Shown here piece after piece: positions 3,135 through 26,147 of a DNA stretch of 39,745 nt. This DNA is from an archaeon BMS3Bbin15 (GTDB taxonomy: Archaea; Hydrothermarchaeota; Hydrothermarchaeia; Hydrothermarchaeales; BMS3B), in contig BDTY01000122.1 in assembly GCA_002897955.1 (NCBI GenBank), forward strand, positions 1 through 39,745, written 5' to 3'. The translations under genes and the position numbers were made by a program. Numbering within the stretch: the first letter of the stretch is position 1; each line of letters begins with the position of its first letter. Below the pieces are notes generated by a model, which worked only from the letters and a program-made list of their open reading frames with translations, made no database searches and was not told the origin of the DNA.

Positions 3135-3595
3135 ATGAAACTAATTCTGAGTGGAAAAGGACCCGGCAAAACCGTTATAGCTTCGTTATTGGCAGTCACA
3201 CACGCAATAGGCGTGTATGACGCTGACCCTTACAGGGCATTGACGGATATATCTTCCCTGGAGCAGAGCCTTATGATGATAAAGACAGTACCATCACCCC
3301 CTGCATAATCGATACCACACTTGTGGATGAGAAAGGAAGACCCTATTATCATATCTTAAATGAAAACCCGGACGGATGGGTTATAGTCGTAACCTCTCCG
3401 CACACACATGAGGTTACATCCACAAAAAGAATGATAGAAGACATGAAAGAGCTTGTAAATGCCCATATCCAGGGTGTTATTATTTCCGTGGCATCCGGTG
3501 AAGAAGAGGCAAAGAAAGTTGCTTACAAATTGGGAGTGTCTCTTATAGGCTTGACTCCTCTTGTATTACGCCGAGGAAGGGATTTGAACCCCTGA
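3135..3595 (+). pseudogene. frameshifted CooC-type P-loop ATPase fragment
   Basis: An ATG at 3135, 5 bases after the previous stop, opens a frame with SGKGPGKT (P-loop) and a DADPYRALTD segment, typical of CooC-like ATPases. That frame ends early, near 3308. The continuing sequence (IFPGAEPYDDKDSTITPC and the rest to VSLIGLTPL) is in the frame that is open to 3595, so about one base has been lost or gained near 3250. The final residues and stop are encoded by the 3' end of the antisense tRNA-Ser gene, as expected for an element gene abutting an attachment site. The protein also looks short for CooC, lacking much of the middle. I call it a decayed gene, with programmed frameshifting a remote alternative. 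Confidence 0.7.
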
Positions 3596-3668
3596 GTTCC
3601 TTGCGGAACACGAGCTTTCTGTGTCAAACTCTCCAGGCTCGCGCCTTACCGGGCTTGGCTACCTCGGC
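3569..3668 (-). tRNA. tRNA-Ser(GGA) with a 14-nt anticodon-loop intron
   Basis: Read on the minus strand, the acceptor GCCGAGG pairs with CCTCGGC and the discriminator is G, the serine identity. A long variable arm GTTCC-GCAA-GGAAC marks a class II tRNA, and TTCAAAT is the T loop. The anticodon stem CGAGC/GCTCG encloses 21 bases, 14 more than a normal loop. Removing AGTTTGACACAGAA (3617-3630), between positions 37 and 38, gives the loop CTGGAGA with anticodon GGA. CTG/CAG pairing next to an AAA bulge makes a reduced bulge-helix-bulge. CCA is not encoded. The element's last gene runs into the 3' end. Confidence 0.9.
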
Positions 3669-5925: not shown

Positions 5926-7386
5926 TTAAAAACTTATGTCCACTCTGGAAAACACATCTTTGATTGCAATAGGTATCTCCACCGAAAGTTCACTGGCAAG
6001 AAAGAAATAACCTTTCCTTTCAAAAAGCCTGTCTCCGCTGTAGCCATTGATAAAGGCGGAAGCACAGGCAGCATAAAAAGGCTCTGCTCCCTGGGCAAGC
6101 AAACCTGCAGCTATACCCGCAAGCACATCACCTGTACCGCCTCTTGTCATCCCAGCATTACCGGTGTTATTAAACTTTATCCTTCCTACGGGCGAGGCAA
6201 CTATGTCTGTGCTTCCCTTCAGAAGAATAGTTGCATTGAATTCTTCAGCAACTTTTTTTACTGTAGCTTCTCTATTTTCAGATTCAACTCCTGAAAGCCT
6301 TCTCAACTCTCCAGCATGAGGAGTTAGTATAGCATGCTTACCTCTCAGAACTTCTTTATCTAAAGCCAAAGCCTTTAATGCATCGGCATCCACAACAACT
6401 GGTTTATTCCAGTGCTTCAGGAAGCTTAACACTGCCTCTATGGTTTTACTGTCATCACCAAGCCCGGGACCTATTACTGCAGCATCGGCTTTATCGAAAA
6501 TTTTCTTCCCTTCACCAAGAGATTTCTTAGTCAGCCTATCACCGGAGTATCCTGTCACTATAAAATCAGGTGAAACAGACCTTACAGGGTTGAGAAGAAC
6601 CCCGGGCACAAAAAGATATACCAGGTCAATGCCGGTGCCGAGAGCGCCCCTGGCTGAGAGTACAGGAGCACCGTGGTACTCTTTACTCCCCCCGATTACA
6701 ACAACCCTGCCAAAGTCACCTTTATGTGCCTCCTTAAATCTCTTTCTCAGGCAGATTACCAGGTCCCCGGGTCCTGCAAAGGTGAGTGCATTTTCAGGCA
6801 TGCCTATGTCCTTTACAACAGTATTATGTCTCTCCAGACCCTGCTTCATGGCAATAAAGGTTACCACAAGGTCTGGCTCGGCAAAATAGCCTTCTCCCTT
6901 TGAATCCATCCCGCTGGGAAGGTCAACTGCCACCTTGAAGGCTTTTGAAACAGCAATTTTGTTCACAGCACTTTTATATGGCTCCTTAATTTCACCTCTG
7001 ATTCCGGTGCCAAGAAGTGCGTCTATTACAACATCCTCGTCAATTTCTAGTTTTTCCGAATCTTGCGAAAATTGGGTCTTGATAGAACTTAGAAATCTCA
7101 GTTTTTCAAGATTTTTCTCAGCAGCTCTGCTTTTCATCTTTTTTCCAAAAACAAATACTCTAACACCAAAACCTGCTTTTGCAAGGTATCTGGCAGCCAC
7201 AAGACCGTCACCACCGTTATTCCCGGTGCCGCACACAACAAGAATATTTTTTCCTTTCTTAATCCTCCTCAACGTCTCCTCCGCAACAGCCCTGCCCGCA
7301 TTCTCCATCAATTCCTTAACACTCGTGCCCAGCCACATTGAATTTATATCAAAAACTCTCACATCATTATAACTGATATATTCCAT
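5926..7386 (-). CDS. nnr: bifunctional NAD(P)HX epimerase / ADP-dependent NAD(P)HX dehydratase
   Basis: It repairs hydrated NADH and NADPH. The N-terminal half is the YjeF epimerase (NAGRAVAEE, GTGNNGGDGLVAARYL, DALLGTGIRGE, VDLPSGMDS). The C-terminal half is the ribokinase-fold dehydratase (KGDFGRVVVIGGSKEYHGAP, PGLGDDS, VVDADAL, LTPHAGELRRL, LLKGSTDIV, NAGMTRGGTGDVLAG). All the expected motifs are present and the length (486 residues) fits fused archaeal Nnr. I prefer ATG 7386 over the upstream TTG 7407 because the family begins at MEYISYNDV and a TATA-like AATTTATCC lies about 30 bases before it. It is divergent from the small zinc-finger gene. Confidence 0.93.
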   Translation of the reverse strand: MEYISYNDVRVFDINSMWLGTSVKELMENAGRAVAEETLRRIKKGKNILVVCGTGNNGGDGLVAARYLAKAGFGVRVFVFGKKMKSRAAEKNLEKLRFLSSIKTQFSQDSEKLEIDEDVVIDALLGTGIRGEIKEPYKSAVNKIAVSKAFKVAVDLPSGMDSKGEGYFAEPDLVVTFIAMKQGLERHNTVVKDIGMPENALTFAGPGDLVICLRKRFKEAHKGDFGRVVVIGGSKEYHGAPVLSARGALGTGIDLVYLFVPGVLLNPVRSVSPDFIVTGYSGDRLTKKSLGEGKKIFDKADAAVIGPGLGDDSKTIEAVLSFLKHWNKPVVVDADALKALALDKEVLRGKHAILTPHAGELRRLSGVESENREATVKKVAEEFNATILLKGSTDIVASPVGRIKFNNTGNAGMTRGGTGDVLAGIAAGLLAQGAEPFYAACASAFINGYSGDRLFERKGYFFLASELSVEIPIAIKDVFSRVDISF

Positions 7387-7535
7387 ATTTAATAAAAGAT
7401 ACTCCAAAGGATAAATTCTTTACTGTATTCCATCGGAAGTAACCTTCGTATGTTATGCAACATAATACACAATTCCAAAACCATCTTAAAGTAGTAGTAT
7501 TATATAAGAAGGATTATACAAGAAGGGGATTAAGA

Positions 7536-7670
7536 ATGACATCAAAATTTACAATGAACAATTTCCTTATACTGAAAAATAAATGCCTTCAGTGCGGTAA
7601 GGATATTCTCAAGTCAAGAGATTTCTGCTCAAAAGACTGTGAAAAGGCCTTTTTTAAAGAAAACGTTTAA
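7536..7670 (+). CDS. 44-residue zinc-ribbon protein
   Basis: This small protein carries CLQC (CxxC) and CSKDC (CxxxC), a four-cysteine zinc-binding pattern with the DFCSKDCEKAF signature of small archaeal DUF2116-type zinc ribbons. A TATA box (TTATATAA, 7499-7506) lies inside the longer open frame that begins at 7455, so translation must start downstream. ATG 7536 is about 30 bases after the TATA box, consistent with a leaderless transcript. Such proteins are thought to bind nucleic acid or protein; no specific role is known. Confidence 0.75.
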   Translation: MTSKFTMNNFLILKNKCLQCGKDILKSRDFCSKDCEKAFFKENV

Positions 7671-7688
7671 AAATAATTAGTAAATTTA

Positions 7689-7773
7689 TGCGGGGGAAGG
7701 GACTTGAACCCTCGCAGGCACTTAGCCAGCAGGTCCTAAGCCTGCCTCCTTTGACCAGCTCGGACACCCCCGC
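7689..7773 (-). tRNA. tRNA-Leu(TAG)
   Basis: On the minus strand GCGGGGG pairs with CCCCCGC and the discriminator is A, as expected for leucine. The anticodon stem GCAGG/CCTGC holds the loop CTTAGGA, giving anticodon TAG, which reads CTA. A long variable arm (TGGC...GCCT) marks class II. No intron and no encoded CCA are present. Its 5' end is 12 bases after the stop of the small basic-protein gene on the same strand, so both are probably on one transcript. Confidence 0.95.
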
Positions 7774-7785
7774 ATAATAAATAGA

Positions 7786-7899
7786 TTATCTTGTCCTGAG
7801 CTTTCTCTGACGCCTTCTCTCTTTTAACTTTTTCTTTCTTGTTTTCCAGCGGCATTTTCCACGCTTTTTCCACTTTCTCGAGCTATGTTTACCTGCCAT
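7786..7899 (-). CDS. 37-residue Arg/Lys-rich basic protein, ribosomal-protein-like
   Basis: It is too short for standard gene calling but well supported: a strong Shine-Dalgarno GGAGGA sits 6 bases before ATG 7899, and a TATA-like CTATAAAAATTT lies about 50-65 bases upstream. The product starts MAGKHSSRKWKKRGK and has 11 Lys and 10 Arg in 37 residues, with two Trp and one Cys. This composition is like the tiny ribosomal proteins (L41e, THX, mS38 type) that thread through rRNA, but I cannot assign a named family. The gene is followed 12 bases later by tRNA-Leu, which fits a translation-related role. Confidence 0.7.
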   Translation of the reverse strand: MAGKHSSRKWKKRGKCRWKTRKKKLKERRRQRKLRTR

Positions 7900-8078
7900 T
7901 AAATTCCTCCTAAAAAATTATTCTTCAGATATCACAATTATCTCACATGATAAATTTTTATAGAAGAAGGAGAGTTAATCAGGCTCTTCTGAAAGTAATT
8001 TTAGTCAGTATAAGTTAATATAACCTCTGATAGCTTGCAATAAGAAGACTTTTAAGTTTTAAATGTAATATATAATAT

Positions 8079-25808: not shown

Positions 25809-26147
25809 TGGAGCCGTGCCGGGAGTAACCCACCTTCTGTTGTAGGAATAGCCGGAAGAAGAATATCATCTTCCGGTTTCCCATGCAGCATTCGTCTTAG
25901 CGCCATAGCGAAGGGACTCCTGCAGCCGAGCGCTCCCTTCTGCTTGCATCCCCAGAGATGGCCGTTTCACCCCCTGTATAGAAACTCTGTCTTTCGACTT
26001 CACAGCTTACTTCTATGCAAGGGTACCGTTTCTGCTCCAGAGCTGTGCCTCTCGGCACGGGTTTATTAACCCTCCGGGTCCTGCAGTGATGGGCGGAGTT
26101 TCCTCACTTCTCAATCAAGAGAAGCGTTAGCTGCCCTCCGGCTCGAC
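25809..26147 (-). ncRNA. rnpB: RNase P RNA, archaeal type
   Basis: On the minus strand the conserved blocks appear in order: GAGGAAACTCCGCC (CR-I), GGAGCAGAAACGG (CR-II), GGGGGTGAAACGGCC (CR-III), AAGACGAATGCTGC (CR-IV) and CAACAGAAGGTGGGTTA (CR-V). The ends can pair as helix P1 (GAGCCG at 26139-26144 with CGGCTC at 25811-25816). About 340 nt fits archaeal type A RNase P RNA, which cleaves 5' leaders from pre-tRNA. End positions are estimates. A 93-residue open frame on the plus strand inside it is not a gene. Confidence 0.93.

Follow-up and report, generated by a model that had tools for sequence, protein, structure and literature searches.

A probable, divergent eS32 gene ahead of tRNA-Leu in Hydrothermarchaeota

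Introduction

What does a very short and extremely basic open reading frame encode when it stands directly ahead of a tRNA-Leu gene, and are the two genes read as one transcript? The question arises from a 39,745-nt stretch of DNA of the archaeon BMS3Bbin15 of the Hydrothermarchaeota (contig BDTY01000122.1), hereafter the window, for which a preliminary description had proposed a previously missed small ribosomal protein and mRNA-tRNA co-transcription. The archaeal record of ribosomal protein eS32 (formerly L41e, aL41) bears on both parts of this proposal. L41e is described as missed in many genomes and counted among nine proteins found in no more than 53 of 87 archaeal genomes (PMC3353972); it is reported in 83% of Thermococci and as sparse or absent elsewhere, with a distribution called uncertain (PMC9258230); and it is listed with genes that Nanoarchaeota and most Euryarchaeota have and Crenarchaeota lack (PMC3655853). 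A literature search found no paper naming both Hydrothermarchae- and L41e, and the titles and abstract openings among the matches listed contained no report of an eS32-tRNA unit.

A short conserved gene

The locus is laid out on the minus strand as follows:

7786–7899, minus strand: probable eS32 (aL41/L41e) gene, 37 aa, ATG start, TAA stop (stop codon 7786–7788)
7906–7911, minus strand: Shine-Dalgarno sequence AGGAGG, 6 nt ahead of the eS32 ATG, read from the sequence
7689–7773, minus strand: tRNA-Leu(UAG) gene identified with Rfam, 85 nt, no encoded CCA, 12 nt past the eS32 stop

The 37-residue product of the minus-strand frame 7786–7899 is MAGKHSSRKWKKRGKCRWKTRKKKLKERRRQRKLRTR. It holds 11 Lys, 10 Arg, one His and one acidic residue, and the earlier count of 21 basic residues in 37 is right for Lys plus Arg. 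The basic 37-residue gene itself, the Shine-Dalgarno sequence (7911–7906) and the same-strand tRNA 12 bases downstream likewise proved to be as the preliminary description had claimed.

A translated search recovered the locus in 20 of the 23 Hydrothermarchaeota class genomes, its own included, with identities of 76–100%. The protein of a same-genus relative is 100% identical to that of the window, and 24 of the 37 columns are invariant across 12 distinct class proteins. Over the first 35 codons, the same-genus copy differs from the window at 4 synonymous and no non-synonymous codons, while 18 of the 19 other class sequences show 11–20 synonymous and 2–7 non-synonymous codon differences. Such a predominance of synonymous change is the mark of purifying selection on a protein. 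GGAGG stands immediately ahead of the start codon at 16 of the 20 class loci, being absent from L012, L015, L017 and L018. The preliminary description had hinged on conservation of the reading frame in relatives, and the frame is conserved.

Judged from these comparisons of sequence, the frame 7786–7899 is a real gene, more than a product of chance. A chance open reading frame ahead of a tRNA gene might well be short, of low complexity, A/G-rich and without a match to any family model, as this one is; its presence in 20 of 23 class genomes, the mostly synonymous change in 18 of 19 other copies and the GGAGG shared by 16 of 20 loci nevertheless make that explanation vanishingly improbable. The start codon is not ATG in seven of the 20 class genomes (L006, L011 and L014–L018), five of these loci having TTG and two GTG, which is a further reason why the gene may escape annotation.

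Assignment to the eS32 family

The open reading frame is very probably the Hydrothermarchaeota ortholog of the small-subunit ribosomal protein eS32. The similarity was assessed with two profiles, A1, built from the class, and A2, built from ten archaeal eS32 sequences of which none comes from the class. The rows of A2 were originally gathered with the window protein, making A2 class-free in content and not wholly independent in collection; its matches in the PDB are the outside anchor. A2 matched six eS32/L41e sequences there, with E-values from 7.5e-11 to 8.5e-5. Comparison of A1 with A2, profile to profile, gave a probability of 97.5 and an E-value of 7.3e-12 over 32 columns. Searched across 247 genomes, A2 found matches in 119 at E up to 0.05. 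Within the class it matched exactly once per genome in 20 of 23, always at the eS32 locus (E 4.4e-7 to 1.7e-5; 2.0e-6 in its own genome), and the gene is thus a single copy, the only family match in each of these genomes at E up to 0.05. Neither the translated search nor the A2 profile search found an eS32 copy in the class genomes G007, G014 and G017, whose completeness is 62, 89 and 62%.

Several results run the other way. The best single-sequence match of the window protein in the PDB is marginal (phmmer, E 0.11); only four distinct sequences were matched up to E 10, all of them L41e/eS32 (E 0.11–0.24). Searched with the class profile A1, the PDB gave nothing at E up to 1. Neither the window protein nor the 12 class proteins matched any Pfam family, and the window protein matched nothing in NCBIfam either; among the ten A2 proteins, NCBIfam reported no L41 family and only two unrelated families, with one member each (E 0.14 and 2.5). 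The Pfam model PF05162 (Ribosomal_L41) gave no match in the genome of the window, nothing there reaching its curated cut-off. Within the core, the class also departs from other archaea, with RWKT for RWKW and Cys for Met/Gln before RW.

The silence of PF05162 has to be read against its performance elsewhere. Above its cut-off it matched in only 2 of 101 genomes, and in one of them (G062) its match lay away from that of A2; at E up to 10 it matched one of the ten A2 members; these misses indicate that the 25-position model is insensitive in archaea. Its cut-off is a detection criterion of one database and no property of the protein.

These negative results and marginal E-values are what a lineage-specific basic nucleic-acid-binding or ribosomal peptide would produce, one that is non-orthologous and owes its resemblance to eS32 solely to being rich in Lys and Arg; the window protein is recognised by no curated family model, and A1 stays without a PDB match. 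Composition, however, is a poor account of the position-specific match. Scored against A2, the window protein reaches 31.2 bits; of 5000 composition-preserving shuffles none attained this value, and the highest gave 14.2 bits. The class-free A2 singles out only the eS32 locus in each of the 20 class genomes, and the residue order SSR-x-WKK-x-G-x-x-RW is common to the class and to other archaea. A non-orthologous peptide is therefore very unlikely. The missing PDB match of A1 counts against the eS32 assignment and appears to be outweighed by the A2-PDB matches, the A1-A2 comparison, the genome search and the shuffles, in all of which the similarity to known eS32 extends beyond composition. The window protein is most likely a divergent member of the known eS32/eL41 family. 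The earlier proposal of a missed small ribosomal protein holds in that the protein is conserved and overlooked by Pfam and NCBIfam, and falls short in that the family is known and the protein is not a new one.

Linkage to tRNA-Leu within the class

Conservation beside tRNA-Leu, the comparison that the preliminary description had suggested, is complete among the class genomes holding the gene: a same-strand tRNA-Leu follows eS32 in 20 of 20, with the anticodon UAG in 14 and UAA in 6. A first tRNA scan had overlooked two of these tRNA-Leu genes, one intron-bearing and one at the very end of a contig, and a later scan recovered both. The gap between the eS32 stop and the tRNA ranges from 1 to 106 nt in the class and is 1 nt in three genomes (L016–L018). 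In the window, ARAGORN places the tRNA at 7688–7774, one extra base at each end relative to Rfam.

The UAA anticodon is found behind eS32 in L015–L020 and UAG in L001–L014, and the T-arm of the tRNA-Leu in L015 and L016 is like that of the UAG type in the genome of the window. This weakly hints that the anticodon may have switched in place at the linked tRNA-Leu. A tRNA-Arg(UCU) gene lies 36–252 nt upstream of eS32 in L011 and L016, the only two such cases in the class, and outside it in L022, L062, L063 and L066, which suggests that a tRNA-Arg - eS32 - tRNA neighbourhood may be old.

Probable joint transcription of eS32 and tRNA-Leu

Two further elements bear on how the locus may be transcribed:

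7942–7955, minus strand: promoter-like element ATTTATCATGTGAG, 10.3 bits, at -56 from the ATG, matching the motif of the genome's own tRNA genes
7669–7673, minus strand: run of five T, read from the sequence, 15 nt past the tRNA, a candidate archaeal terminator of the eS32-tRNA unit

The 14-base promoter motif comes from a training set of 38 tRNA genes of the same genome, each represented by its 60 upstream nt. Training excluded the target tRNA-Leu and two second members of tandem pairs, and the training genes score high by construction; the sites upstream of eS32 and of tRNA-Leu both lie outside the training set. The best score in random 60-nt stretches provided the background, with a median of 2.6 bits and 75th, 95th and 99th percentiles of 4.5, 7.5 and 10.4 bits. 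At 10.3 bits, the eS32 upstream element falls between the 95th and 99th percentiles, a somewhat generous placing, since 130 nt were scanned against a 60-nt background. The promoter claimed earlier as excellent is thus present as a promoter-like element, of a strength that stays below the 99th percentile. The 60 nt ahead of tRNA-Leu score at most 1.8 bits, below the background median, and lower values among the 41 tRNAs of the genome are confined to the two second members of tandem pairs.

The same motif, trained on one genome, was applied to the 20 class genomes. The eS32 side outscores the tRNA side in all 20, in an uneven comparison of up to 120 nt against 60 nt scanned. In 11 of the 20, the best eS32-side site scores 4.4 bits or more at a promoter-like distance (-40 to -60). 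It falls on the Shine-Dalgarno sequence in L005, L011 and L020 and at other distances in L010, L012 and L015, and in L006, L016 and L019 it scores less than the background median. Several relatives offer weaker promoter evidence than the window.

With a promoter motif ahead of eS32 and none ahead of tRNA-Leu, the locus is best read as giving a joint mRNA-tRNA transcript, and eS32 and tRNA-Leu probably share one transcript. The co-transcription proposed at the outset is favoured to that extent, as a conclusion drawn from sequence. Alternatively, the tRNA-Leu might be transcribed on its own, with a promoter lying within the eS32 coding sequence; only the transcript is at issue in this alternative, which is compatible with the eS32 identity of the protein. 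The variable gap lengths (1 to 106 nt) are in its favour, as are the many tRNA genes of the genome that have a promoter-like element of their own and the nine of 20 class members in which the motif finds no convincing promoter on the eS32 side. Set against these, the 60 nt before the linked tRNA never exceed 4.0 bits in any of the 20 class genomes, less than the 75th percentile of the background, and in the window the motif stands ahead of eS32 instead. In L016–L018, the 1-nt gap leaves no room for a separate tRNA promoter outside the coding sequence. Separate transcription is accordingly judged unlikely.

Under the preferred reading of a joint transcript, a single promoter, some 55 nt ahead of the ATG, would give rise to a two-gene transcript carrying the eS32 mRNA and tRNA-Leu, and this transcript would end in the T-run past the tRNA. 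Cleavage by RNase P at the 5' end of the tRNA would free the tRNA and would also make the 3' end of the eS32 mRNA.

eS32 loci in other archaea

Outside the class, 99 genomes matched A2, and 68 loci were examined (58 fetched and 10 from the translated search). A same-strand tRNA starts within 300 nt downstream of eS32 at 12 of the 68. It is tRNA-Trp, 11–89 nt away, at seven loci in families f42, f58, f98 and f61 (L022, L062, L063, L066, L025, L058 and L071), tRNA-Leu in L080 (f68), L082 (f46) and L109 (f17), tRNA-Val followed by tRNA-Gly in f63, and tRNA-Glu, at 295 nt, in f26. At a random place and strand, such a tRNA would be expected at a rate of about 0.35% (41 tRNA matches in 1.74 Mb, an even spread being assumed). 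The 12 tRNA-linked loci are related by descent and do not count as 12 independent events. In the other 56 of 68, no same-strand tRNA was found within 300 nt downstream, although a few of these stretches end at a contig end that could hide one.

Families f31 and f51 have a peculiarity of their own. In all nine loci examined (L026, L027, L029, L050–L053, L059 and L060), out of 12 genomes of these families with an A2 match, the eS32 frame has ATA at the usual position of the start codon, mostly preceded by a GTGA-type or GGAGG-type sequence. Since seven of the nine contain no in-frame ATG, GTG or TTG past the preceding stop, an AUA start codon for eS32 looks likely in f31/f51.

A bolder reading makes the eS32-tRNA-Leu pair a regulatory unit whose function goes beyond sharing a promoter. 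RNase P processing would then fix the 3' end and the lifetime of the eS32 mRNA and couple the supply of leucine tRNA to that of the subunit-bridge protein, and this coupling would be why eS32-tRNA units (Leu, Trp, Val) were retained or invented anew in archaeal lineages. We regard this as speculative and doubtful. The family is a known one, and its linkage to a tRNA gene appears to be an uncommon but unspectacular arrangement.

Other features of the window

Further genes lie in the window. A 44-aa cysteine-rich open reading frame at 7536–7670 (plus strand) is convergent with tRNA-Leu and matches DUF2116, a probable treble clef, below the Pfam cut-off (E 7.8e-4). A fused NAD(P)H-hydrate epimerase and dehydratase (YjeF_N + Carb_kinase) occupies 5926–7407 (minus strand), and a third tRNA gene of 100 nt, probably intron-bearing, is found by Rfam and not by ARAGORN at 3569–3668 (minus strand). 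An archaeal RNase P RNA gene (RF00373, 165.5 bits) lies at 25814–26146 (minus strand) and shares the window with the eS32-tRNA unit, its would-be substrate.

Significance

These results provide sequence evidence that Hydrothermarchaeota very probably have eS32, for which an uncertain distribution among archaea has been described. They also illustrate why eS32 gets overlooked: it is too short, divergent, initiated at a codon other than ATG in 7 of 20 class genomes, and invisible to curated models. In addition, the stable position of eS32 ahead of a tRNA gene offers a clean test case for archaeal mRNA-tRNA co-transcription.

Comparison with known systems

The solved archaeal eS32 proteins (PDB 6sw9_0, 9fny_A2, 6skf_Bk and 6tmf_c; PF05162), which we take to come from Pyrococcus/Thermococcus, resemble the window protein in length (36–37 aa against 37), in extreme basicity (21 Lys plus Arg in the window protein) and in being encoded by a single copy. 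In both, moreover, a basic stretch comes after the order RKWKK-x-G-x-x-RWK. The window protein is two residues longer at the N-terminus (MAGKHSS against MKRRP/MKRSS), carries Cys in place of Met/Gln before RW and Thr in place of the second Trp of RWKW, and is left undetected by PF05162 in its own genome. Genomic context differs as well: the class gene adjoins tRNA-Leu, whereas no same-strand tRNA lies within 300 nt at the seven loci examined in f14, which come nearest to the solved form in sequence.

According to a structural account, eS32 was placed first in the large subunit, as eL41, and is structurally a small-subunit protein; the elongated N-terminus of Pyrococcus furiosus eS32 forms a hook anchored between h27, h44 and h45, and eukaryotic eS32 forms the central intersubunit bridge eB14 (PMC11724365). 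Since the Hydrothermarchaeota protein has the long archaeal form of the N-terminus, plus two residues, we infer the same role for it. By homology with the published structures, it would be a short basic helix with an N-terminal hook, seated in the 30S subunit at the subunit interface, and would help to build the central intersubunit bridge.

As for gene order, the closest parallels are the tRNA-Arg(UCU) - eS32 - tRNA-Trp clusters of L022 (f42), L062 and L063 (f58) and L066 (f98), where, as in the window, eS32 stands directly ahead of a same-strand tRNA gene. In L025, L058 and L071, eS32 is likewise followed by tRNA-Trp, with no tRNA-Arg detected within 300 nt upstream. These loci differ from the window in the identity of the downstream tRNA, which is tRNA-Trp, with an intron at five loci.
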